The translations under genes and the position numbers were made by a program. From NCBI RefSeq assembly GCF_000166355.1, contig NC_014652.1, positions 1,834,928 to 1,898,927 of the forward strand: a DNA stretch of 64,000 nucleotides, written 5' to 3'. Under the pieces are notes generated by a model that was given only the letters and a program-made list of their open reading frames with translations, was not told where the DNA came from and made no database searches. This document shows positions 50,472 to 61,892 of this stretch, in pieces. The DNA comes from Caldicellulosiruptor hydrothermalis 108 (GTDB lineage Bacteria > Bacillota > Thermoanaerobacteria > Caldicellulosiruptorales > Caldicellulosiruptoraceae). Every line of letters begins with the position of its first letter. Position 1 is the stretch's first letter.

Positions 50472-51398
50472 TTACTCATTTAGAATCTCAATAATATCTC
50501 CTGCTTTAATCTTGCCACCTTTTAATACTTTTGCAAAAAGCCCCTCTTTTGGCATTATGCAAACCCCAACAGACCGTGCAATTTCGCAGCCGCTACCGTG
50601 GCACTTTTTCCCTATCTGGCTTATCTCAAGCAAGACATTATTCCCTATTTTCAGTTTTGTTCCAAGCGAAATTTTCTGCAGATCCAAGTTTTCTGTTGTA
50701 ATGTTCTCTGCAAACTTGCCAAAACAAAGGCCTTTGAGCCCGTACTGTTCCATCTTCTTTATGCTGGATATATCAAGAAGACTCACCTGACGATGAGAAG
50801 ACCCGGCGTGTGCATCACCTTCAATCCCATAGTTTTCAATCAAAACCGCTTCGCTTACTGGTTCTTTCGGCGTTCCTTTTTGTCTGCTGATGTTGATTGA
50901 CACAACCTTTGCAGTTTTATTTTCATTTTCAAAAATATAATGTCCAGATTTTCCCCCAGATTTTTCTATAAGCCTGACATCAGTAATTACCATATCTTTT
51001 TTTACCGCTTTGCACATGTCATATACTGTCTCTAAAAAAATAACCACTGCTGTGATTGCTTCCATCTCAGCACCTGTTTTTGCCTCAGTTTTTATTTCTG
51101 ATACCGCTTCAATGTACCCTTCTTCCCTGTCTATTCTATACGAAACATCAACAAAAGACAAAAATATGTTGTGGCAAAGAGGTATGAGCTCAAACGTCTT
51201 TTTGGCAGCATTTATAGCTGCAATCTTTGCAGTTGCAAACACATCCCCTTTTGGTAAAAGCCCATTTTCAATTGCTTCAATAACATCCTTTCCTACAAAG
51301 ATCTTCCCGCTTGCTCTTGCAACCCTAAAACTTGGTTCTTTTGACGTAACATCTACCATCTTGGGAAGGCCATCTTTATCAAAATGTGTAAATTCCAT
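50472..51398 (-). CDS. moaC: MoaC-MOSC fusion protein
   Basis: 308 residues with two domains. Residues ~1-155 are MoaC (cyclic pyranopterin monophosphate synthase), with MVDVTSKEPSFRVARA, LIPLCHNIF (~75) and the EAKTGAEMEAITAV stretch (~104). Residues ~165-308 are a MOSC domain (VVSINISRQKGTPK, GIEGDAHAGSSHRQVSLL, GKCHG-type SQIGKKCHGSGCEI), a molybdopterin or Mo/W-sulfur handling domain. A fused MoaC-MOSC gene joins an early and a late cofactor step. It is the last gene of the tup-moe-moa operon. Confidence 0.92.
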   Translation of the reverse strand: MEFTHFDKDGLPKMVDVTSKEPSFRVARASGKIFVGKDVIEAIENGLLPKGDVFATAKIAAINAAKKTFELIPLCHNIFLSFVDVSYRIDREEGYIEAVSEIKTEAKTGAEMEAITAVVIFLETVYDMCKAVKKDMVITDVRLIEKSGGKSGHYIFENENKTAKVVSINISRQKGTPKEPVSEAVLIENYGIEGDAHAGSSHRQVSLLDISSIKKMEQYGLKGLCFGKFAENITTENLDLQKISLGTKLKIGNNVLLEISQIGKKCHGSGCEIARSVGVCIMPKEGLFAKVLKGGKIKAGDIIEILNE

Positions 51399-51405
51399 AT
51401 TTACA

Positions 51406-52332
51406 CTACCCTCCTATCTTAAACATCGGCATATCCGATTTTAGGCTTCTTATCAGCTTTTTCTTTTTGACAAAATCTTCTATCTTTTTGAGCAGGAGAT
51501 CTTCATCATCCAGAAACTCTCTTAGCTCTAAACCATTTTTATCAAACAGACAGTTGTAAAGCACGCCAGTTGATGAGACTCTGACTTTATTGCATGTTTT
51601 GCAAAAATGGTCTGATACAGAGCTTATAAATCCTACCGTGTAGTCAAAATCTTCAACATAGTAATATTTAGCAGCGGAAACTTCCTTTGTGCTCACTTCT
51701 TTTATTCCTTTGAACCTTTTGATAACCTCATCTTTGCTTACAAATTCATCTTCAAAGATTTGGTTGGCAATACCAATTGGCATAAGTTCAATAAAGCGAA
51801 TAATAATATTACTCTTTTTTGCAAAGGAAATCAAATCTTCTATCTCATCAAGGTTAACAGAGCGAATGAGCACAGTGTTTATTTTCACTCTCTTGTGCTC
51901 TCTCAACTCATCTATCGCTGTCAAAACCTTATCTAAACCATCAATTCCTGTTACAGACCTGTATTTTTCTTTATCCAATGTATCAAGAGAAATATTTACT
52001 GATTTGAGCGGACTTTTAATAACCTTTTTAATCTTTTCGGTATCTAACCAACCATTTGTTGTTATATTTATATTTTCTATACCAATACTGTGTGCAAACT
52101 CAATTATCTCAAAAATGTCATCTCTCAAAAAAGGCTCTCCACCAGTAATCCGAAGCTTTTGTATTCCAAGCTTTTTAAATGCAGAGATTATCCTAAATAT
52201 TTCTTCTTTTGAAAGCTGGTCTATCCTTTCATAATACAAATCCTTTGTTCGGCAATACATGCAAAAAAAGTTGCATCTATCAGTCACAGAAAGCCTTAAA
52301 TAGTCTATTTTTCTTGAAAAACCATCAAACAT
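51406..52332 (-). CDS. moaA: GTP 3',8-cyclase (MoaA)
   Basis: A radical-SAM enzyme that makes 3',8-cyclo-GTP, the first step of molybdopterin synthesis. About 308 residues. The radical-SAM cluster CNFFCMYC (CxxxCxxC) follows RLSVTDR near the N-terminus, and the C-terminal cluster has CKTCNKVRVSSTGVLYNC (~255-272). The last two residues are Gly-Gly, the C-terminal motif needed in MoaA. I choose the ATG at 52332 (MFDGFSRK) with AAGGTGATG upstream; the earlier start at 52350 is a TTG. Confidence 0.93.
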   Translation of the reverse strand: MFDGFSRKIDYLRLSVTDRCNFFCMYCRTKDLYYERIDQLSKEEIFRIISAFKKLGIQKLRITGGEPFLRDDIFEIIEFAHSIGIENINITTNGWLDTEKIKKVIKSPLKSVNISLDTLDKEKYRSVTGIDGLDKVLTAIDELREHKRVKINTVLIRSVNLDEIEDLISFAKKSNIIIRFIELMPIGIANQIFEDEFVSKDEVIKRFKGIKEVSTKEVSAAKYYYVEDFDYTVGFISSVSDHFCKTCNKVRVSSTGVLYNCLFDKNGLELREFLDDEDLLLKKIEDFVKKKKLIRSLKSDMPMFKIGG

Positions 52333-52346
52333 TTTCATCACCTTTT

Positions 52347-53510
52347 TCAAATCATCTTGACCTTAACCAAACTTCCCTCTTCCACCACATCCACATTTAT
52401 TGGCACAACTATATACCCATCTGCCCGTATCAAACTTGAAATCACGCTTGCTCCTCTTTTTAAAACTCTTGCATGGTTTTTGCCATCCTTGTTTTCAACC
52501 TGTACTCTTATATACTCCTCAGCTCCAACGTCTGACCCAACTCTTCTTTCCAGTACAGCCATAACCGTCTTTTCTTTCGGATTTAACAAATATGCGTCAA
52601 AGAAAGCCTTTAAAAAAATCTCTTTGAGAACAAAAAACATAGAAACAGGAAAACCAGGAAGTCCCATTACGAGCTTCCCATTTATCTCACCTATGACTGT
52701 TGGTTTGCCAGGCTTTATAGCTATACCGTGGACAATTACCTTGCCAAGACTTTGGATAGCTTCAGATGTTAAATCTTTGTCACCTTTAGATGACCCAGCA
52801 TTTACAAACACAATATCAAATTCATCTAAAAGTTTTTTCAAAGTTTCTTTAAGAACATTTAAATCGTTGGCTACTGGTTTGAAAATACTAATTTCAAAAC
52901 CATACTGATAAAGAAGTTCACTAAAAATCACCGAATTGAACTCAACAAGCTGTCCAGCTTTTTCAATTCTATCCACAAGCTCATCTCCAGTTGGCAGAAA
53001 AGCAACTTTTGGCATTTTGTAAACCTTGACATTAAGCCATCCACCAGCTTTTAGATATACCTTGTCAAAAAATGTCAAAAACTCACCTTTCTTTATTATC
53101 ATCTCACCTTCTTTTATATCCTCGCCCTGTGAACGAACGTTTTGACGCGGATAGTAGCTTTGAAAAATTTTTATTTTACCGCCTTCAACTTGGACATCTT
53201 CAAAAGGAATAACCGCATTGAAATTATCTATACTTTCCCCTGTTTGGACAGTTTTGAAATTTTCAAGGTATTTTGGATTTGTATCATAAGCGTCGAATGT
53301 CTCTTCAGCCATCACGGCATATCCATCCATTGCAGCAACATCTGTAGGTGGGGATGTGTGAATAGCTTTGTAATCCTCTGCAACAAATCTATTTTTTGCA
53401 TCATACAATGAAATCTCCTCTTCTTCTAATACCAGATATTTCTTTAGAATTTCCTGGATAGAAACTCTTGCATGCTGGGGAAGCACAGTTGAAAAATGAT
53501 AATCTTTCAT
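52347..53510 (-). CDS. moeA: molybdopterin molybdenum/tungsten transferase MoeA, second copy
   Basis: 387 residues with MoeA domain order: MoeA_N (~15-165, TDVAAMDGYAV and NVRSQGEDIKEG), the MoCF_biosynth domain (~175-310, VAFLPTGDELV, VNAGSSKGDKD, KPGKPTVIG, GLPGFPVS), and a C-terminal beta domain (~320-387). MoeA inserts molybdate or tungstate into adenylated molybdopterin. It overlaps the first moeA by four bases. Two tandem moeA genes often coincide with use of both metals or with tungsten alone. Confidence 0.92.
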   Translation of the reverse strand: MKDYHFSTVLPQHARVSIQEILKKYLVLEEEEISLYDAKNRFVAEDYKAIHTSPPTDVAAMDGYAVMAEETFDAYDTNPKYLENFKTVQTGESIDNFNAVIPFEDVQVEGGKIKIFQSYYPRQNVRSQGEDIKEGEMIIKKGEFLTFFDKVYLKAGGWLNVKVYKMPKVAFLPTGDELVDRIEKAGQLVEFNSVIFSELLYQYGFEISIFKPVANDLNVLKETLKKLLDEFDIVFVNAGSSKGDKDLTSEAIQSLGKVIVHGIAIKPGKPTVIGEINGKLVMGLPGFPVSMFFVLKEIFLKAFFDAYLLNPKEKTVMAVLERRVGSDVGAEEYIRVQVENKDGKNHARVLKRGASVISSLIRADGYIVVPINVDVVEEGSLVKVKMI

Positions 53511-54721
53511 ATCAATATCACCTCAACAATATCTCCCGCCCTGATACCAGTTTTTGTTGCATCAACCCTTATATATCCACTTGCATTATTCAAAAGATTT
53601 ATCGAACCTGATTTTCCATAAAGAGGCTCAGCTAAAATCTCATCACCAAAATGAAGCTTTACAAACACAAACTCAGTTCTGCCGGATGAAGTTGCGATGC
53701 TTGTCTTCATCTTTGCAACCACTTTTCTGAAAGTGTCCTGCTGATGTAATATTATGTCCATAAGTTTTTTTACAAAAAAGTTGAATATAAAAAGGCAAGA
53801 CACAGGATGGCCAGGAAGTCCAAAAACTGCCTTTATTCCAACCTTTGCTATTATTGTTGGTTTGCCCGGTTTTATTGAAACACCGTCAACAAGCACCTTA
53901 GAATCTTTTAGACTCTCAATAGCCTTTAAAGTGTTGTCGTATGTGCCAACAGAACTTCCACCTGAAATAAGAACAATGTCATTTTCCTGCAAAGCTTTAA
54001 ATAGGATATCTTTTAAAACTTCAAAATCATCTTTTACAATCCCATACATTTTTGGCAGAGCATATTCCTTGTAGCATGATGTAAACAAGGTAAATGAGTT
54101 AACATCATAAATCTTTGCGCTATCGAGCTTTTCATCCTGTGATATTATCTCATCTCCGGTTGAGACGATACCCACCCTTATTTTTTTAAAAACTTCCACT
54201 TCCTTTTTCCCTATTGCAGCCAGCACGCCAATTTGAGCAGGCTCAAGTTTTTGATATTTCTTTATAACAATGTCACCTCTTTTTATATCCTCACCCTTTT
54301 TGAGTATATTCTCGCCAGGTTTTGCTGGCTTGAAAACATAGAGCTTGCCATCTTCTTCAATGGTATTCTCAAGCATCACAATACTATTTGCATTTTGGGG
54401 TACATACCCCCCTGTGAATATCCTTGCAGCCTGTCCTTTTTGTATTTGAAAGTCTGGTACTTTACCCGTTTTCACCTCGCCTACTATTTCAAACACGGCC
54501 GGGTTTTCATCATTTGCTTCAAACGTCTCTTCACATCTTAGTGCATATCCATCAACAGTGGACTTGTCAAAGTGAGGAACATCTATATCTGCTATAATAT
54601 CTTGAGCACAGATTCTAAAAACTGCTTCTTGGATAGATACCTTTTCTGATTGAAGATTAAAATTACAAAACTCATCTTTAAGTATCTCAAAGACCTCAAA
54701 ATATGTTTTTAATACCTTCAT
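53507..54721 (-). CDS. moeA: molybdopterin molybdenum/tungsten transferase MoeA, first copy
   Basis: 404 residues with the same MoeA order: HFDKSTVDGYALR (~50), KGEDIKRGD (~142), VGIVSTGDEII (~195), SGGSSVGTYD (~265), KPGKPTII and FGLPGHPVSCLF (~300). The GHP variant of the GLPGxP loop and longer C-terminal region separate it from the next paralog. It overlaps tupC by four bases (ATGA), so its translation is coupled to the tungstate transporter. Confidence 0.92.
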   Translation of the reverse strand: MKVLKTYFEVFEILKDEFCNFNLQSEKVSIQEAVFRICAQDIIADIDVPHFDKSTVDGYALRCEETFEANDENPAVFEIVGEVKTGKVPDFQIQKGQAARIFTGGYVPQNANSIVMLENTIEEDGKLYVFKPAKPGENILKKGEDIKRGDIVIKKYQKLEPAQIGVLAAIGKKEVEVFKKIRVGIVSTGDEIISQDEKLDSAKIYDVNSFTLFTSCYKEYALPKMYGIVKDDFEVLKDILFKALQENDIVLISGGSSVGTYDNTLKAIESLKDSKVLVDGVSIKPGKPTIIAKVGIKAVFGLPGHPVSCLFIFNFFVKKLMDIILHQQDTFRKVVAKMKTSIATSSGRTEFVFVKLHFGDEILAEPLYGKSGSINLLNNASGYIRVDATKTGIRAGDIVEVILI

Positions 54722-55311
54722 CTGGTAACATCACCCTCTTGAATAATCTGACCATTTTCAAAATATATCACATTGCCCATCAAAGCTGCACTTTGATGGT
54801 GTGTTACAACTATTATACACCTTTTTTGTGCTTCATCTTCTATAAGTCTGTACACAAACTCTTTTACATCTTTGTCGAGAAAGGAATCGGGCTCATCCAA
54901 AAAAAGCACATCAGAAGGTATATAAAACGCTCTTAAGAAACTTACTAGCTGTCTCTGCCCAGCCGAGAGCTGATTTATGTTGGTTTTAAGAGGAACACCA
55001 AACATCTTTAAAACCTCCTGGGCAGACTTTAGCCTCTCATGCGAAAGAGCAAGTGCAAGATTATATTCAACCGACCCTCTAAAAAAATATGGTTGCTGTG
55101 GAAGCATAATGTTTTTCTTGAACAGATTATGTATTCTACCTGAATATTCTTTGTCTCTTCCAAAAAGCATTCTTAAAAATGTGGTCTTCCCACAACCGTT
55201 TGGTCCTTTTATGATATAAAGCCCTTTCTTTCCAAATGTGAGACTTTTGCACTCAAACAATATCTTCTGTCCAAAACTCTTTTTCACATCTTTTACCTCA
55301 ATCAACAACAT
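54718..55311 (-). CDS. tupC: tungstate ABC transporter ATPase
   Basis: An ABC ATPase of about 197 residues, short for the family, with Walker A GPNGCGKTT (~35), a Q-loop at MLPQQPYFF, signature LSAGQRQLVSF (~115), and Walker B DVLFLDEPDSF. I start it at 55311 (MLLIEVKDVKKSFG); the longer reading from 55413 runs through tupB. It lies 13 bases inside the end of tupB and is coupled to it. Confidence 0.9.
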   Translation of the reverse strand: MLLIEVKDVKKSFGQKILFECKSLTFGKKGLYIIKGPNGCGKTTFLRMLFGRDKEYSGRIHNLFKKNIMLPQQPYFFRGSVEYNLALALSHERLKSAQEVLKMFGVPLKTNINQLSAGQRQLVSFLRAFYIPSDVLFLDEPDSFLDKDVKEFVYRLIEDEAQKRCIIVVTHHQSAALMGNVIYFENGQIIQEGDVTR

Positions 55312-55930
55312 CACCCTGCAATATTTGCAAAAGTGTATTAAAAGTAAATGAGATGGCAAGTAGCACCGCACCCAGCAAAAGAGCGTTTGAAAACTCACCC
55401 TTGGTAATTTCAAAAATTATGGCTGTTGTTAAAATCCGTGTGCTTCCTTCTATGTTACCTCCAACAATCAAAACTCCACCAACCTCAGAAATTGATCTTG
55501 ATAGTCCCAAAACAATAGCATACATTATTTCTTTTGAATATTCCTTCATAATGGCTGTATACCTTTTGCGTCCTTTCACGTTCAAATAATCCAAGTTTTC
55601 AAGAACCCTATCTATATTTTTAAGTCCAGACAGGGTATACAGTGTGACTATAGGAACAATGAGTATTACCTGGGCAATAACCATGGCCCATTTGGTAAAA
55701 AGTATGTTCAAAAAACCAAGAGGCCCTTTTCTGGAAAGAAGTATATATACCAGTAGCCCTGCGAGTACAGGTGGCAAACCAGATAGAGTATAAACTATTC
55801 TAATTAGCATCTTTCTATATTTGAACCTTTTGACTTTGAGAAAATACCCTGCAGGAACACCTATCAAAACAGCCAAGAATGTCGAAGGAATACAAACAAC
55901 CAAAGTTGAAATAATTACATTTGCCAGCAT
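55298..55930 (-). CDS. tupB: tungstate ABC transporter permease
   Basis: 210 residues with five or six membrane helices and an EAA-like loop (MKEYSKEIMYAIVLGLSRSISEVGGVLIVGGNIEGSTR at ~128-165). The SRSISEVGGVLIVGGN block is typical of the TupB family, which differs from ModB and CysT. It starts 19 bases after tupA. Confidence 0.9.
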   Translation of the reverse strand: MLANVIISTLVVCIPSTFLAVLIGVPAGYFLKVKRFKYRKMLIRIVYTLSGLPPVLAGLLVYILLSRKGPLGFLNILFTKWAMVIAQVILIVPIVTLYTLSGLKNIDRVLENLDYLNVKGRKRYTAIMKEYSKEIMYAIVLGLSRSISEVGGVLIVGGNIEGSTRILTTAIIFEITKGEFSNALLLGAVLLAISFTFNTLLQILQGDVVD

Positions 55931-55949: not shown

Positions 55950-56765
55950 TTATTTTACAACTCTGTAGATTTCTTTTTTGAAGAATTTTCGGTTAAAAGA
56001 ACTTACAAGATTTTTAAATTCCTTGCTTTTCAAGTAGGCAGCAAATTTGGAAAGCTGTGCTTTTTTAGGTGAGTAAGCAAAGTAATAAATATTTGTAAGT
56101 ACTTGCTCCTTTGGATTTTGGTAAACTACATCCAAGCTATCTAATTTATCTTTCATTTTATAAAATGTTGCTTCATCAGTGAGAATAAAAGCTCCCTTTT
56201 CATTTGCAAGATTTAGACTCATTCCCATACCCTGCCCTGACTTTATATATCCTCCAAAATTTGGCTGGACCTTTGCTAACTTCCATATCTCAAGTTCTCT
56301 AATATAAGTTGCTGAGTTGTCTGCACGTGACACAAATTTAAAGTTATTTTTTCTTATCAGTGCAAAAGCTTCTTGGACACTTTTTACCTTTTTAAATAAA
56401 TCCTTTTTATCTTTTGGCCCAACAAGTATAAAATAGTTCGAAACAAATGCTGTATAACCATTTATCAGTTTCTCTTTTTTAAGTTCATCCAGAAATGACT
56501 TTTCATGTATTATTATTCCATCAGCATCACCATTTCTGAAAATCTTTACAGCTTGACCACTCCCTACTGAAATGAAATTGAACTTTACATTATTTTTCTT
56601 TTCAAAGGCAGGTGTAACAAAGTCCAAAAAACCACTGTCATATATACTTGTAGTTGTAGCTATCTTGTAAGTTTTAGAATAAGAAAATGAAAGAAAGCTA
56701 AAAGTAGCAACCAAAATAAAAGCAAGTAACGCTGCCAAATTTTTAAGATACTTTCCTTTTTTCAT
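55950..56765 (-). CDS. tupA: tungstate-binding protein
   Basis: 271 residues with a signal peptide (~1-29) and the TupA motif ATTTSIYDSGFLDFVTPAF (~33-52), where the TTTS residues bind the oxyanion. FRNGDADGIIIHEKSF (~76-91) and VSRADNSATYIRELEIW (~142) are also typical. The signal peptide has no lipobox Cys. It is the first gene of tupABC-moeA-moeA-moaA-moaC; its upstream region has been invaded by an insertion sequence. TupABC generally favours tungstate over molybdate. Confidence 0.9.
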   Translation of the reverse strand: MKKGKYLKNLAALLAFILVATFSFLSFSYSKTYKIATTTSIYDSGFLDFVTPAFEKKNNVKFNFISVGSGQAVKIFRNGDADGIIIHEKSFLDELKKEKLINGYTAFVSNYFILVGPKDKKDLFKKVKSVQEAFALIRKNNFKFVSRADNSATYIRELEIWKLAKVQPNFGGYIKSGQGMGMSLNLANEKGAFILTDEATFYKMKDKLDSLDVVYQNPKEQVLTNIYYFAYSPKKAQLSKFAAYLKSKEFKNLVSSFNRKFFKKEIYRVVK

Positions 56766-56809
56766 TTTTATCCCCTCGCATTTATATTTTCAAAATAGCC
56801 TTTTGCAAA

Positions 56810-56828
56810 AACGCTCAAGATGAGCGTT
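56810..56828 (-). terminator. terminator-like hairpin just before tupA
   Basis: AACGCTC/GAGCGTT with a 5-base loop, followed on the minus strand by TTTTTG. It lies 45 bases before the tupA ATG, so any transcript arriving from the upstream side must pass it. It may be part of the insertion sequence end or of an original attenuator. Confidence 0.55.
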
Positions 56829-56862
56829 ATCAAGCTTTACATAGAATCAAAAAAGACTGGTC

Positions 56863-56925
56863 ACCCTCCTCATAATTGTAGTAAAATATGATTATATAAA
56901 ACAAATTTTCTACTATGAGGAGGGT
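56863..56925 (+). promoter_or_regulatory. inverted repeat enclosing a promoter and hiding the transposase ribosome site
   Basis: Perfect 12-base arms ACCCTCCTCATA (56863-56874) and TATGAGGAGGGT (56914-56925). The right arm holds the GAGGAGGG ribosome site for the ATG at 56932. Between the arms is a promoter-like TTGTAG and TATAAA region. Transcripts starting inside would lack the left arm and be translated; transcripts reading in from outside would fold and block translation. Confidence 0.6.
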
Positions 56926-56931
56926 TCCAAA

Positions 56932-58362
56932 ATGTTCAACACCAAACCTAAACAACTTTCTTTCATAGACCTATTCTCCCACCTAAAGGCTTCGGCTCTC
57001 TACAAGCCTGAAAGCCTCTTGGGCTTGTTCAATAAATTCATTGACTTGTCACATTATATACCTTCTTCTTTCTACAATGCCTACTACAAATATTTCGGTA
57101 AGCATAGATACTTCTCTTTAGAATCTATGCTTTGTTGCTTCCTCGTCCAAAAATTGCTCAAACTCAATACTTTAACTCAGCTTCGTGCTGTCTTACTCAA
57201 CTCATTCGAACTTCGCTCATTTTGTAATCTTCATGGCAATGTCCCTTCTATCTCTACTCTCTCTCGCTTTAGAAAAATATTTGCAAGTGAAATCCATAAA
57301 CTTTTTCAAAATATCTCTATCCATGCACATAATATTTCCATCCAACAATGCCCTCAAGATTCTTCAATCTTAATCTTCGACACAACAGGTATTGTCCCAA
57401 AGGTTCGTGAAAACAATCCTAAATTCATTCATCTACTGCTGAAAAATACCTCAAAAGCTAACCCTGAACTTCCCTCTGAAAAAGTCTACTCTCTTGTTTA
57501 TTCTTCTCTGCCTAAAACTGCTGCTGCCAATTCCAATATCCGTCTTATGTTCACAAATGGCCATTTCTGCTGGGCTTTAAAATTTGCAGTCATTACCAAC
57601 GCTCTCGGTATCCCTTTAGCTTTAGTACCTCTGTTTAACTATGATTCCCCTTCCTCTGACCCACAAGAAGCAAAAGCTATCTCCGACTCTAAAGGTTTAA
57701 TTCCTTCGCTCGAAACTTTATTCTCTTATATCCCCAAAAATTTCTCCACTTTCATCGCCGACAGTGCTTTGGATTCCCACAACATATACTCCACTTTAAA
57801 AAATACCTTTAACTTCTCCAAAATCGTTATTCCACTAAATACAAGAGCTTCTAAAAATACTACACCTACATCAGACCCCAATATCGTTATTTCTGAAGAT
57901 GGTATCCCTATCTGCAAAAAGTTCAACAAACCTTTTAAACCCGAAGGCAAATGTCAGGGTAAAAATCGCTCTTTGCGCCTTAAATGGACTTGCCCTATGT
58001 CACAATACAAAGATGGCAAACGCATCTGCTCTTGCCCTCAGCCTTGTACTACCTCTAAATCGGGTAGAATGTTCTATACATACCCAGATAACTTTCGCTC
58101 TTTCCCAGGTATCAACAGAAATTCACAAGAGTTTTTTGACCTCTACAAAAAACGTGTCGCTGTAGAGCAGACTATTTACCACCTGAAATCCTACATGGGC
58201 TCTGATACTATCTCTACTTATGACCATATTTCTATTTTCTCTGATTTCTTGCTATCTGCCATTACTTTCTCGCTCTTGTTTATTCTCGCTCACAATATCA
58301 AACTCTATTGCTCTAAATTGACTATCAAAAAACTTAACAAGCTCAAAAAACTTATCGCTTAA
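56932..58362 (+). CDS. IS transposase (DDE, DUF772/InsH-like N-terminus)
   Basis: 476 residues. The N-terminal helical domain (~55-130, YFSLESMLCCFLVQKLLKLN, LHGNVPSISTLSRFRKIF) resembles the DUF772/InsH-type transposase N-terminus. The DDE catalytic residues probably are Asp in LIFDTTGIV (~152), Asp in FIADSALDSHN (~277), and Glu in KKRVAVEQTIYHLKSY (~418). A Cys-rich insert (CPMSQYKDGKRICSCPQPC, ~358-376) precedes the last acidic residue. The reading frame is intact, so the element may still move. Confidence 0.85.
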   Translation: MFNTKPKQLSFIDLFSHLKASALYKPESLLGLFNKFIDLSHYIPSSFYNAYYKYFGKHRYFSLESMLCCFLVQKLLKLNTLTQLRAVLLNSFELRSFCNLHGNVPSISTLSRFRKIFASEIHKLFQNISIHAHNISIQQCPQDSSILIFDTTGIVPKVRENNPKFIHLLLKNTSKANPELPSEKVYSLVYSSLPKTAAANSNIRLMFTNGHFCWALKFAVITNALGIPLALVPLFNYDSPSSDPQEAKAISDSKGLIPSLETLFSYIPKNFSTFIADSALDSHNIYSTLKNTFNFSKIVIPLNTRASKNTTPTSDPNIVISEDGIPICKKFNKPFKPEGKCQGKNRSLRLKWTCPMSQYKDGKRICSCPQPCTTSKSGRMFYTYPDNFRSFPGINRNSQEFFDLYKKRVAVEQTIYHLKSYMGSDTISTYDHISIFSDFLLSAITFSLLFILAHNIKLYCSKLTIKKLNKLKKLIA

Positions 58363-58646
58363 TACTACTATTTTTTAAATCTATTTCTTACAAAAAATTT
58401 CTGGTTTTGTTTTTACTTAACCTTCTAAAACAAGGAGTTAAGAAGGCTTAGGATATTATTGTCTTTTTTGAAGTTGTTAATTTTTGTCATATGTTTGTTG
58501 CTGATTATTTTTGTTGGTATTGATAATATTTGGTTTTCACTTCTCTTTTCTTTTTGTATCTTGATTGTATTTCATGTTAGTATTGGTGCCTTTTACCTTC
58601 AATCACCACCTATTTTGCAAACGCCTAATATTTTCAAAAACAAAAA
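58363..58646. other. intergenic stretch between the transposase and the riboswitch terminator
   Basis: AT-rich, with one small hairpin (CCTTCT/AGAAGG, 58421-58446) that may end the transposase transcript. It must contain the right end of the insertion sequence and the remnant of the original riboswitch-tupA spacer. A TTG-initiated plus-strand reading frame of 82 codons starting at 58459 overlaps the riboswitch terminator and is not called. Nothing else is recognised. Confidence 0.5.
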
Positions 58647-58826
58647 AGGATACTCTCCCGCTTTGAAACTTGAAGCAAAAGAGTATCCTTCTAAAACCAA
58701 GTTTTAGAAGAATCTTTCCTTTCCAAAGCGGGAGGCGTAGGGGTTTCCCAACCTACACCCTATCGGCCACAGCACCATGAAGAGGAAACACCCTCTTTTT
58801 AGGCTGCTGTGGCTCGGAAAGATTCT
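58647..58826 (-). promoter_or_regulatory. Moco/Tuco-type riboswitch with terminator
   Basis: On the minus strand: P1 AGAATCTTTCC/GGAAAGATTCT (58816-58826 with 58709-58719), enclosing a long hairpin (GCCACAGCA/TGCTGTGGC, then AAGAGG/CCTCTT), the linker CGATAGGGT, a hairpin GTAGG..GGGAAACC..CCTAC capped by a GNRA loop, and CGCCTCCCG followed by TGGAAAGG. The last blocks match the conserved 3' core remembered from the E. coli moaA leader. A hairpin CTTCTAAAAC/GTTTTAGAAG and a strong terminator stem GGATACTC/GAGTATCC with TTTTTT follow. Only two hairpins are inside P1, which fits the tungsten (Tuco) variant lacking P3. The 5' strand overlaps the moeB stop. Confidence 0.85.
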
Positions 58827-59511
58827 AAAATTCAAAAACTCTGTATTCATTTGTCAGAAGATTTACAACCATACACTTTCCGATTAAGTTCTCACCTTGA
58901 ACTGATATCAGCTTACAAAACTCAGAAAGTTCCAAAGCTGCTGTCAGCATTGGTGCAAAAATGGGATTGCCAAGGTCTTTTTCAGCACCTTCAACATTTG
59001 TCTCTCCCAAAAGTTTTTCTATTCCATGTGTGTCTTTTGTGATGATGGCAATCTGGGCATACCAGCCAGCACACCCGCCGTGAATTAAAACCTTGCCCAT
59101 CTTTTGTGCAAACTTTGAAAGACTCTTTCTTATTTCTATATTGTCAGTTGCATCGAATATATAACTTGCTTCCATCAAAAATATATCAAGGTTTTCTAAA
59201 TAAGCCTTTTCCTTTATTGGCTCAAAATAAACTGCAGGGTTTATCTCTTTTACCCTTTTTTCAGCCTCAAACACTTTGAATTTTCCAAGGTTGTTTACGT
59301 TAGAAATTATCTGCCTATTGAGGTTAGTCTCATCAAAAGAGTCCATATCAACTGCAATAATCTTTTTCACACCAAGCCGCGCAAGTCCTTCTATCAAAAA
59401 ACCACCTATTCCGCCCACTCCAACAACCGCAACTGTTGTTGAAAGAAGTTTTTTTTGAGCATCTATACTCAAAGCACCCAGATTTTTTAGATATCTTTTT
59501 TGCACAGCCAT
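58825..59511 (-). CDS. MoeB/ThiF/HesA-family adenylyltransferase
   Basis: 228 residues, an E1-like activating enzyme. The N-terminal VAVVGVGGIGGFLIEGLARLG (~28-48) binds ATP, followed by DSFDETNLNRQI (~62, the DxxNxxRQ motif) and DATDNIEIRKSL (~118). It would adenylate the C-terminal Gly-Gly of the small MoaD-like protein three bases upstream. The zinc-binding CxxC pairs found in many MoeB proteins are absent. It is the last gene of the AOR operon and its stop codon lies within the riboswitch P1 stem. Confidence 0.9.
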   Translation of the reverse strand: MAVQKRYLKNLGALSIDAQKKLLSTTVAVVGVGGIGGFLIEGLARLGVKKIIAVDMDSFDETNLNRQIISNVNNLGKFKVFEAEKRVKEINPAVYFEPIKEKAYLENLDIFLMEASYIFDATDNIEIRKSLSKFAQKMGKVLIHGGCAGWYAQIAIITKDTHGIEKLLGETNVEGAEKDLGNPIFAPMLTAALELSEFCKLISVQGENLIGKCMVVNLLTNEYRVFEF

Positions 59512-59514
59512 ATA

Positions 59515-59745
59515 TTAGCCTCCAGTTGCATATGGAGTTATATACACACTATCATTTTCCGACAATACATAGTCAAAGTCAACTCTTTTTTGATTGACAA
59601 TCACAAACCCAACCTTGTCTTTTGGAATGTTTAAGTTTTCAAGAAGCTTTTCTACATTTGTGTTCGGGTCAATCTCAACTTCCATTTTCCCAATTTTGCT
59701 GCCGTACCTTCCAAAAAAACTATTTACCTCTACTCCAATCTTCAT
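59515..59745 (-). CDS. MoaD/ThiS-family sulfur carrier protein
   Basis: 76 residues of the beta-grasp fold ending in the essential Gly-Gly (PYATGG), where activation and thiocarboxylate formation occur. It lies between the tungsten oxidoreductase and the MoeB-like enzyme, so it probably carries sulfur for the dithiolene of the tungsten cofactor. Its partner MoaE, the large subunit of molybdopterin synthase, is not in this window. The start lies inside the end of the oxidoreductase gene. Confidence 0.9.
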   Translation of the reverse strand: MKIGVEVNSFFGRYGSKIGKMEVEIDPNTNVEKLLENLNIPKDKVGFVIVNQKRVDFDYVLSENDSVYITPYATGG

Positions 59746-61489
59746 ATTCCTTCTCCACCCTCTCGATATACATCTTCAAAAGCCTATTTAACCTCTCTTC
59801 ATCCATCTTACCCCACATTGTCGGTGTTTCAAATATTCTCTTTGGAAACTTATAATTTTCAAGGGAATATCCAAGCTCTTTTTTGATTTTCAGTTTTGTG
59901 AAAAATACGTCATTCGCAAGTCTTGTTAGGTCATCGTCTGTCCAGTTTATACCAACGGCATTTAACGCTTTCAAAATGGTTGGCCTGTCATACACCTTTC
60001 GGGCAAACAGGCATATGCAAAGTGATGTGAGCACTGCCCTTTCTTTTTCTTCATTAATTACATAATCTATTATTTCCTCATCTTTTAATTCTTTTGCACT
60101 CTGGTCATAAGAGTAACCTGCATTGTCTAAATGAGAATGCCTTGCACCAACTGTTTGACCAAGCGCAAATGCATAGCCTGTATGATATCCTGCCATTTCA
60201 TTTCCACCATACAAAAGCGCAAACTCTTCTCCTCCATATTTTTTAACAGCTTCTTTCAAACCTTTGCCTATTGTGTAGTAAAACTCGTTTATTCTATCTG
60301 CAATATTGTCAATTGCTTTAACATACTCCATGGTGTTGCCAAAATCAAGGTCAGCAAGGGTATCTTCTCTTGAGATAAGCCCTTTTTTGAGCGCTTCTGT
60401 TGCCCATGCCAATACAACACCTGTTGTTATAGCATCAAGTCCTGCAAGTTCAACCTCTTCTATAATTTGTAAAACTTCGTCTGTTGTCTTTATTCCCAAT
60501 AGGCTTCCAAGTGCATATATAAGTTCATGGTCATATGAAACAGAAATGGATTCATACTCATATCCCTTGTCAAACTCGCGTCTGAACTGTCCTATATGGA
60601 TGCATCCAATGGGACAGCCTACACACGAAACCTTTCTGACCAAGTTCTTTTCGGCAAATGTCTCACCTGAGATATCATCTGCATATTCGAATGTAGACTG
60701 AAGCAAATTTTTAGTAGGAAGAGAACTTATGCTATTTAGCACTTTGATGTTCATAGGTGTTCCAAGCTCGTGATACTTCGCCATAGCATCTGTCTGTGTA
60801 ACTTTTTTGTATATCTCCTGATAAGTCTTAAAGTACTCTTTAAGGTTGGCAATTGGCAAGTCCTCTTCTCCCATTATCATCATAGCTTTGAGGTTCTTAC
60901 TTCCAAAAACTGCTCCTATGCCAAGCCTTCCAAAATGCCTGTAGGTATCAACGTTGACACAAGAGTATGTTACAAGGTTTTCCCCTGCCTTGCCAATTCT
61001 GATTATGCTTCTTTTCCCTGGACCTGGCTCTCTTTCTCTTATAACTCTTCCTGTCTCCTCTATGTCAAGTCCCCACATAGCCCTTGCATCTTTAAATTCA
61101 ATATTCTTATCTGTAATGACAAGGTATGTGGGTTTTTGAGCTTTTCCTGTTATAACTATTGCATCATATCCTGCATTTCTTATTGCCATTGCAAGTCTTC
61201 CACCTGCATGGCTTTCACCATATTCCCCTGTGTGAGGTGAAATAAAGGTTGCTACAGCTTTTGTCACAACAGGAAAGATGGTTGAAAGAGGCCCGATTGA
61301 AATGATGATCGGCTGGCTTTCGTGCAAAGGGTCAACACCTTTTTTCATATTTTCCTCTAAAAGCTTTGCTGCAACACCTGCTCCGCCCAAGTATTTATAA
61401 AGATCCTTCCTTTCTTGAATGTCTGCTTTTTTGTTTGTAAGGTCTATATAAAGCACTCTTATAAAGTCTTTGCCTATCATCTTACTCAC
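59720..61489 (-). CDS. tungsten-containing aldehyde:ferredoxin oxidoreductase family protein
   Basis: 589 residues, slightly short of the ~600 typical of AOR. The N-terminal domain (~1-210; YLGGAGVAAKLLEE, SPHTGEYGESHAGGRLA, YDAIVITGKA) forms one pterin-binding face. The 4Fe-4S cysteines lie in VSCVGCPIGCIHIG (~288-300) and a later Cys in SLCICLFAR (~490). It oxidises an aldehyde or glyceraldehyde 3-phosphate and reduces ferredoxin; the substrate is not readable. Two classes (GOR-like and a novel XOR) are known in this genus; I cannot tell which this is. It follows the polyferredoxin with a coupled overlap. Confidence 0.93.
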   Translation of the reverse strand: MSKMIGKDFIRVLYIDLTNKKADIQERKDLYKYLGGAGVAAKLLEENMKKGVDPLHESQPIIISIGPLSTIFPVVTKAVATFISPHTGEYGESHAGGRLAMAIRNAGYDAIVITGKAQKPTYLVITDKNIEFKDARAMWGLDIEETGRVIREREPGPGKRSIIRIGKAGENLVTYSCVNVDTYRHFGRLGIGAVFGSKNLKAMMIMGEEDLPIANLKEYFKTYQEIYKKVTQTDAMAKYHELGTPMNIKVLNSISSLPTKNLLQSTFEYADDISGETFAEKNLVRKVSCVGCPIGCIHIGQFRREFDKGYEYESISVSYDHELIYALGSLLGIKTTDEVLQIIEEVELAGLDAITTGVVLAWATEALKKGLISREDTLADLDFGNTMEYVKAIDNIADRINEFYYTIGKGLKEAVKKYGGEEFALLYGGNEMAGYHTGYAFALGQTVGARHSHLDNAGYSYDQSAKELKDEEIIDYVINEEKERAVLTSLCICLFARKVYDRPTILKALNAVGINWTDDDLTRLANDVFFTKLKIKKELGYSLENYKFPKRIFETPTMWGKMDEERLNRLLKMYIERVEKEYEDWSRGK

Positions 61490-61892
61490 TCACCTCTTCC
61501 ATGCTAAGACAATTGTGTGGGCACATTCTCACACATGCCCCACAGTGTTTGCAAACAATTGGGATTTTTCTATCATAGTCCATGTGAATTGAGCCAACTA
61601 TGCACGCGCTAACACATTTTTCGCATGCAATGCATTTTTCTTCGATTAGCTTAACACCTCCACCTGGCCTTTTAACAAGCGCATTTGTAGGACAAGCCTC
61701 TGCACACGCTGGTTCTTTGCACGCAACACAAATTGTTGCTGCAAACTTGCTCTGAAGCCCCCCTCTTGTCTTCACCTTAATAGAACTTTTTGCAAGGTTG
61801 TGATTGTTATGGTTCACCGCTGCGCATGTAAGCATGCATGTGAAACATCCAAGGCACTTGTTCATGTTATCAGCTCGAAGAACCTTTGGCAA
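61482..61892 (-). CDS. polyferredoxin subunit of the tungsten oxidoreductase (4x[4Fe-4S])
   Basis: 136 residues with sixteen Cys in four cluster motifs: CLGCFTCMLTC (~14), CVACKEPACAEACP (~55), CIACEKCVSAC (~88) and CKHCGACVRMCP (~115). This HycB/CooF-like electron-transfer protein would carry electrons from the tungsten site. The start is a TTG with AGGTGGTGA eight bases upstream. The promoter is at 62030-62058, giving a leader of about 130 bases with no recognised riboswitch. Confidence 0.88.
   Translation of the reverse strand: MPKVLRADNMNKCLGCFTCMLTCAAVNHNNHNLAKSSIKVKTRGGLQSKFAATICVACKEPACAEACPTNALVKRPGGGVKLIEEKCIACEKCVSACIVGSIHMDYDRKIPIVCKHCGACVRMCPHNCLSMEEVSE

Follow-up and report, generated by a model that had tools for sequence, protein, structure and literature searches.

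The target choice of insertion sequences (ISs) is commonly regarded as loose or tied to rare sites. IS1202-type elements insert beside Xer sites and Tn7 inserts downstream of glmS; a host motif is recognised by these elements, and the insertion falls at or near it. Recognition of a host motif with insertion at or near it is likewise described for ISs that target repetitive extragenic palindromic (REP) sequences, in the part of that work considered here (PMC1525189). Among riboswitches of the molybdenum cofactor (Moco) family (RF01055), Regulski et al. 2008 (PMC2408646), in the sections drawn on here, assigned the RNAs without a P3 stem to the tungsten cofactor (Tuco), and 17 of the 19 organisms having such RNAs carry tungsten-metabolism genes. 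Here we describe a 64,000-nucleotide (nt) stretch of Caldicellulosiruptor hydrothermalis 108 (NC_014652.1, positions 1,834,928–1,898,927; the whole stretch is called the window, and coordinates are counted from its first letter), in which a P3-less riboswitch of this family is separated by a complete IS from tupA, the gene of a tungstate-binding protein. Taken as a whole, it is very likely that this riboswitch was parted from its genes by an IS addressed to Shine–Dalgarno sequences, by which tupA would now be mostly uncoupled from it.

The locus was compared with 11 congeners and with one genome from a sister genus of the same family (G012). In all 12 the order is a ferredoxin-like gene, the oxidoreductase gene, moeB, the riboswitch, its terminator, a few tens of nt and then tupA and the following genes, without interruption, and an IS between riboswitch and tupA is found in the window genome only. 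The riboswitch thus lay ancestrally upstream of tupABC-moeA-moeA-moaA-moaC and is parted from tupA here by a complete IS. This bears out the initial annotation of this DNA, which had read the RNA as belonging to these genes and had proposed an alignment of related genomes as a check: the RNA stands directly upstream of tupA, with no insertion, in 12 of 12. Its claim that a 1.4-kb transposase gene splits the terminator from tupA also holds, except that the whole element is larger, at 1832 bp. The distance from terminator to tupA, a few tens of nt in relatives, is ∼1.9 kb here and is filled by antisense IS sequence. The IS lies past the T-run of the terminator and ahead of the tupA ribosome-binding site, and the signals on both sides of it, namely riboswitch, terminator, ribosome-binding site and reading frames, are intact. 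The physical disconnection of the riboswitch from tupA is real.

The element has inverted ends (TAGGCGTTTGCAAAA and TAGCCTTTTGCAAAA), a target duplication, near-identical copies elsewhere and a transposase gene, as expected of an IS. A stretch resembling the duplicated one occurs singly in the uninterrupted leaders of G002, G003, G004 and G009, the remaining leaders being too diverged at this place. When the 24 copies of the window genome were compared, 20 differed from their consensus at 0–2 positions, and L064, L065 and L066 differed at 12, 9 and 120; the copy in the window has 11 differences, all of them in one 60-bp tract (IS positions 1080–1139), which looks like one gene conversion from a divergent copy. 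Because the duplication is exact and the differences are confined to this conversion-like tract, the comparison suggests a recent insertion at the tup locus; reading the 11 differences as signs of an old insertion was rejected, since all of them fall within 60 bp and count as one tract. The element is a multicopy repeat, and a misassembly of this 24-copy repeat might have put it between riboswitch and tupA. This is extremely improbable, since the genome is one contig and this copy has its own perfect 12-bp duplication, similar to a single stretch in four congeners, as well as a private tract of differences. An open reading frame (ORF) of 82 codons at 58459–58707 (+) consists mostly of IS DNA.

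Target choice was analysed in 86 IS copies: 24 from the window genome (G000), 34 congeneric ones (from G001, G002, G004, G006, G008, G010 and G011; transposase identity ∼59–96%) and, more distant, 17 from G023, G024, G025 and G026 (35–39%) and 11 from G091, G150, G289 and G302, all four of them from outside the class (34–41%). Copies outside the window genome were mostly the longer matches of the search lists, not every match. The counts below refer to the 75 copies, from 15 genomes and with transposase identities of ∼34–100%, that have a recognisable duplication of 9–25 bp; the other 11, in which no usable duplication was seen, were excluded, and the offset profile and the ORF contexts cover the first 64 sites only.

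At the junctions of the 24 copies in the window genome, ribosome-binding-like sequence is found on the same side of each. Scored against AGGAGG, the hexamer exactly 4 nt past the duplication (+4), on the side of the transposase start, matches at 6/6 positions in 42 of 75 sites; 63 sites have at least five matches and 71 at least four. GAGG occupies +6 to +9 in 65 insertions. The background in the same flanks is 0.39% per position for a match of at least 5/6, and the mirror position beyond the left IS end reaches this level in 0/75. Other offsets from −8 to +25 have at most three matches each, except +7 (11 matches), which is self-overlap of the motif. The binomial P of ∼1e-139 for the +4 rule presumes independent sites and says no more than that the pattern is not due to chance. 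Relative to the IS end, the motif is spread over offsets 12–29, with three matches at 36–38, and the bases beside the IS end are AT-rich only. Since the motif is fixed relative to the duplication and spread relative to the IS end, only one of the two cuts is tied to the motif.

The pattern recurs from genome to genome. At least half of the sites reach 5/6 or better in all 15 genomes (1–23 sites each), with shares of 21/23 in G000, 5/7 each in G001, G006 and G010, 2/3 in G002, 7/8 in G023, 5/5 in G026, 3/3 in G091, 2/4 in G150, 2/2 each in G289 and G302, and 1/1 each in G008, G011, G024 and G025. A rule limited to one genus was rejected, since the +4 motif is also found in the four genomes outside the class. 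These counts show statistically that most insertions of this transposase group lie upstream of a GGAGG-type motif at a constant distance of 4 nt, and that their transposase is directed away from it. It is quite likely that the group, which occurs in no fewer than two classes of a single phylum, takes Shine–Dalgarno DNA as its address, in one orientation, and tends to insert between regulators and genes, the tup locus being a recent product. Because the group lands a fixed 4 nt from Shine–Dalgarno-like motifs, the site at tup looks dictated by target choice, and selection on tungstate control is not needed to account for it.

Several sites weigh against this reading. The tupA site itself is a weak case (GCGAGG, 4/6, with the GAGG core kept), and GAGG is missing at the fixed place in 10 of 75 sites. 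L107 and L130 have the motif shifted 2 nt further on, L129 has nothing motif-like, and L115, a copy without a usable duplication, has no clear motif beside its right end. The other exceptions are as follows: L051, L123, L127, L134 and L136 have no GAGG, yet GGA stands at its own place within the motif; L131 reads AGGGGC at the fixed place; and L155, half of a tandem pair, has the next IS as its neighbour. Among the copies without a usable duplication, L066, L122, L138, L140, L154 and L168 have GGAGG within ∼25 nt of the right end, and for L113 and L139 the right IS end was not located. L117 and L118 (G006) carry each other's flanks, and reading them crosswise gives duplications ATTATCATTCAG and TTTGTATTTTAATAATCCTCTA, each with NNGAGG at +4.

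A further objection is that genomic sites have passed a filter of selection, which may add to the pattern. In its strongest form this would mean that the element has no motif preference, and that insertions near Shine–Dalgarno sequences are merely tolerated, coding sequence and ribosome-binding site being spared. An ORF of at least 60 codons does follow at ribosome-binding distance at 44 of the 64 sites, and many insertions within genes would not persist. Selection would be expected to prefer a zone, yet the motif is exactly at +4 in 63 of 75 sites and almost nowhere else, a one-base distance that selection would hardly fix. Moreover, sites that do not precede genes, at L164, where the motif and the 5′ end of a tRNA gene overlap, and at L060 and L131, where the insertion is at short inverted repeats, show the motif or a near match. 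We regard insertion without motif preference as highly improbable. The share of 44/64 is close to the 17/29 of scorable AGGAGG motifs in the window that have such an ORF (vs 10% of random positions); therefore, the insertions resemble a sample of all GGAGG motifs. We conclude that the target motif is read by the element as DNA, with a putative contact between transposase and motif, and that it mostly hits ribosome-binding sites because these are the usual GGAGG in AT-rich genomes. Because 17 of the 29 motifs in the window are ribosome-binding sites, the element tends to land between a leader and the start of its gene. In molecular terms, the left IS end would be transferred to the CCTCC-carrying strand at a point set by contact of the protein with the motif in DNA form; the second strand transfer would fall 9–25 nt upstream in AT-rich DNA.

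Unlike the targets of REP-targeting ISs, IS1202-type elements and Tn7, the motif used here is the ribosome-binding consensus, which stands in front of many genes. Unlike those fixed-address elements, moreover, this IS has one fixed cut and another that varies over 9–25 nt. No Shine–Dalgarno-addressed IS was found by title or abstract start among the papers listed on IS target choice, a search in which ISfinder and most subscription papers were not covered, and a prior description is possible. The papers listed on riboswitches with insertion sequences likewise gave no earlier account of such a disconnection. The GGAGG of PMC4227781 concerns, in the part of that paper considered here, the homing site of a group I intron.

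The RNA at the locus was matched by the RF01055 model from end to end (58831–58700, −), scoring 70.2 bits (gathering score 36), and the P3 positions are deleted in the alignment, which places it in the Tuco form. It has a GAAA-capped hairpin, the CGCCTCCCG...TGGAAAGG core and a 10-bp P1 (58825–58816/58719–58710). The initial annotation had described a Moco/Tuco-type RNA on the minus strand right after moeB, with conserved core, GNRA hairpin, P1 and terminator platform, and had suggested a covariance-model check; all of these parts are seen in the sequence (terminator at ∼58690–58642), and the match lies above the gathering score. Full-length match, core and P1 are shared with RF01055 riboswitches, and in relatives the RNA is upstream of tup, moe and moa genes; a putative terminator follows it, as PMC2408646, in the part considered here, remarks for the RNAs of S. 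wolfei. Unlike known RF01055 RNAs, the window copy no longer abuts its own genes. These features show the window RNA to be a P3-less Moco-family riboswitch with a transcription terminator, whose cofactor binding and regulation are predicted. Free cofactor is too unstable for simple binding assays, and RNAs of this family were reportedly examined by Regulski et al. with genetic tests in E. coli. The Tuco assignment agrees with the surroundings, aldehyde ferredoxin oxidoreductase (AFOR) and moeB being upstream and tup, moe and moa genes downstream. RF01055, AFOR_C and TupA are each matched once in every one of the 12 genomes of the genus, the window genome included.

A predicted antiterminator pairs the aptamer core with the 3′ side of the terminator (Table 1). 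In the 12 genomes of the genus the longest such duplex is 13–17 nt, a length reached by 0–1 of 500 shuffled terminators per genome (single bases were shuffled, not dinucleotides), and the CAAAGCG segment of its 3′ half is conserved in 12/12 while adjacent loop bases vary. The sister-genus genome G012 speaks against this mechanism, its duplex being just 8 nt and not significant (69/500 shuffles). G012 retains aptamer and terminator despite the weak antiterminator, and its platform may work differently. In predicted folds of the full leader, P1 plus terminator has −86.9 kcal/mol and the antiterminator form −81.1; for an RNA ending at the 3′ end of the antiterminator, the antiterminator is the minimum-energy fold (−79.9 kcal/mol). 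Because the antiterminator is the best fold of the short RNA and P1 plus terminator the best of the full leader, an OFF switch is predicted. Before the insertion, aptamer core and terminator 3′ side would have paired as antiterminator at low cofactor and transcription would have gone on, whereas with cofactor present P1 would have closed and the terminator would have been freed to form.

In 13 aligned genomes the moeB stop is at P1 or a few bases away, and in the window the first pair of P1 uses the final base of the stop codon. The riboswitch is therefore located within the gene cluster, and its transcript may begin upstream of or inside moeB. At this overlap (58816–58827), ribosomes ending moeB may compete with P1.

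Functional uncoupling of tupA from the riboswitch is reasonably probable; the initial annotation had offered loss of cofactor feedback, or expression of tupA from the IS or from an upstream hairpin of its own, as alternatives. After the insertion, polymerases reading through at low cofactor would first make 1.83 kb of RNA that is untranslated and antisense to the transposase, and only then reach tupA. The gene would thus be mostly uncoupled, relying on residual read-through or on a promoter within the IS end or close to it. Alternatively, regulation could still be in force if polymerases that pass the terminator read the whole IS, so that tupA still responds to the cofactor, perhaps with reduced expression. 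None of the three signals (riboswitch, terminator, tupA ribosome-binding site) is damaged, and the genome has a single TupA and a single AFOR gene, both open, so that some expression may be needed. However, Rho-type termination is expected to cut off such long untranslated antisense RNA, and persistence of control across the 1.83 kb is rather unlikely. It is also doubtful that tupA is driven by a promoter at the IS end, with constitutive tungstate uptake as a consequence. Two candidate hexamers are present in the sequence (TTGCAA in the IS and, after 16 nt, TATAAA in the native leader), but the pair is absent from the scan list, the second hexamer ending in A, sister elements (G010, G006, G002, G001 and others) have CTGCAA or ATGCAA there, and the bases beside the IS end are merely AT-rich over 64 sites. 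The promoter scan of 56600–59000 was at chance level (shuffled sequence gave 6.3 ± 2.7 promoter-like sites, the real sequence 7), and a hybrid promoter at the IS end was set aside as unsupported. An outward terminator at the IS end (ACGCTCA-TCT-TGAGCGT-TTTTG) was also not used, being unlisted by the scan and having a broken T-run in sister elements.

At the 85 other IS loci no further riboswitch split by the same IS group was found at Rfam gathering scores in flanks of ∼0.7–1.5 kb. Rfam matches there are tRNAs and one M-box only; since this M-box points away, tup is the only locus in the set with an Rfam riboswitch separated from its genes. The M-box riboswitch (L162, 388–550, −) adjoins its IS copy.

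If the target rule is true, an IS addressed to the ribosome-binding consensus would offer ready-made rewiring: by inserting into a leader it parts the gene from its promoter, attenuator or riboswitch while the translation start stays intact. The riboswitch of this strain would then control a transcript antisense to a transposase, and not the genes for which it evolved. At the tup locus, one species with the disconnection can be paired with eleven that lack it, so as to gauge the worth of riboswitch feedback on tungstate uptake. Insertion at a fixed distance ahead of ribosome-binding sites may also serve as a tool, should the rule be confirmed.

Table 1. Features of the tup locus in window coordinates
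Feature	Position	Strand	Basis or remark
Moco/Tuco riboswitch aptamer (RF01055), P3-less form	58700..58831	-	cmscan 70.2 bits, E 6.8e-15
P1, 5′ strand	58816..58825	-	first base is final base of moeB stop codon (58827-58825)
Aptamer core CUCCCGCUUUGGAA, predicted antiterminator 5′ half	58721..58734	-	14-nt duplex with 58655-58668, 0/500 shuffles
UUUCAAAGCGGGAG, predicted antiterminator 3′ half, overlaps terminator 3′ side	58655..58668	-	pairing with 58721-58734
Intrinsic terminator and T-run, intact	58642..58690	-	also in 12/12 comparison genomes
Insertion sequence, 1832 bp, one of 24 copies in window genome	56796..58627	+	ends, duplication, copy comparison
Target duplication, riboswitch-side copy TTTTGAAAATAT, 12 bp	58628..58639	-	perfect repeat
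Target duplication, tupA-side copy TTTTGAAAATAT, 12 bp	56784..56795	-	perfect repeat
tupA Shine–Dalgarno GCGAGGGG, presumed target motif, intact	56772..56779	-	starts exactly 4 nt past duplication
Transposase, 476 residues, DUF772 and DDE-like region	56932..58362	+	ORF and domain scan; points away from tupA
Predicted hairpin pairing transposase Shine–Dalgarno (GAGGAGGG) with upstream CCCTCCTC	56863..56925	+	predicted fold
tupA, tungstate-binding protein	55950..56765	-	NF041772, E 2.5e-35, 122 bits, below curated cut-off of 400
tupB, tupC, moeA, moeA, moaA, moaC-MOSC, all frames open	50472..55930	-	ORFs and domain scan
Ferredoxin-like gene, aldehyde ferredoxin oxidoreductase gene, moeB-type (ThiF) gene	58825..61892	-	upstream of riboswitch

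The transposase has a DUF772 domain (PF05598) at 35.2 bits against a gathering score of 23.1, and DDE_Tnp_1 (PF01609) scores 22.4 bits, below its gathering score of 23. Invariant in 12 aligned transposases are D150, D277, D281, R408, E412 and K419, which include D and E residues of the expected type, and cysteines 328, 354, 368 and 372. IS1182 (NF033551) is the top NCBIfam match for all eight transposases scanned, the window protein with 59.2 bits and seven relatives with 57–119; the element was not filed as IS1182, because the cut-off is 270 bits. The group thus resembles the IS1182 family in its best match, which stays below the curated cut-off; the Shine–Dalgarno target rule and the variable duplication may set it apart. 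Transposase matches at E 1e-50 or better were found in 12 of 398 genomes drawn from the phylum, six of them outside the genus, and a plasmid search gave two records with 33% identity. No solved structure was found by sequence search with the transposase. A structure model (mean pLDDT 80) had as best fold match a piggyBac transposase (6x67_C, E 9.4e-3, TM 0.37), which was too weak to be used.

In predicted folds of 10 of 10 elements, made without a shuffle control, the GGAGG-like stretch before the transposase is in a stem, in one case with a single unpaired base, its predicted partner being a CCTCC-like stretch further upstream. IS10 and IS50 are protected against transcripts from outside the element. 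The predicted hairpin of the present element is similar in that it would hide the transposase ribosome-binding site in transcripts entering from outside; unlike in IS10 and IS50, the hidden sequence is of the same kind as the target motif.

As to the neighbouring genes, tupA is the sole NF041772 match in a search of the window genome (E 0.001), moaC (50472–51398, −) is fused to a MOSC domain, and the ferredoxin-like gene is named by its cysteine motifs, without a domain scan. An upstream fah gene is present in the compared stretch of all relatives except G006 and G012.

The right flank of L117 resembles the start of fah, the neighbour of the oxidoreductase cluster in relatives, and the segment between L117 and L118 (∼18.5 kb; G006, ∼695–717 kb) seems to have been brought by recombination between IS copies. 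Tandem insertions are seen at L125 (G011) and at L153 and L155 (G023), where the second copy lies between the earlier copy and the same motif; at L125 the new duplication contains part of the earlier IS end.

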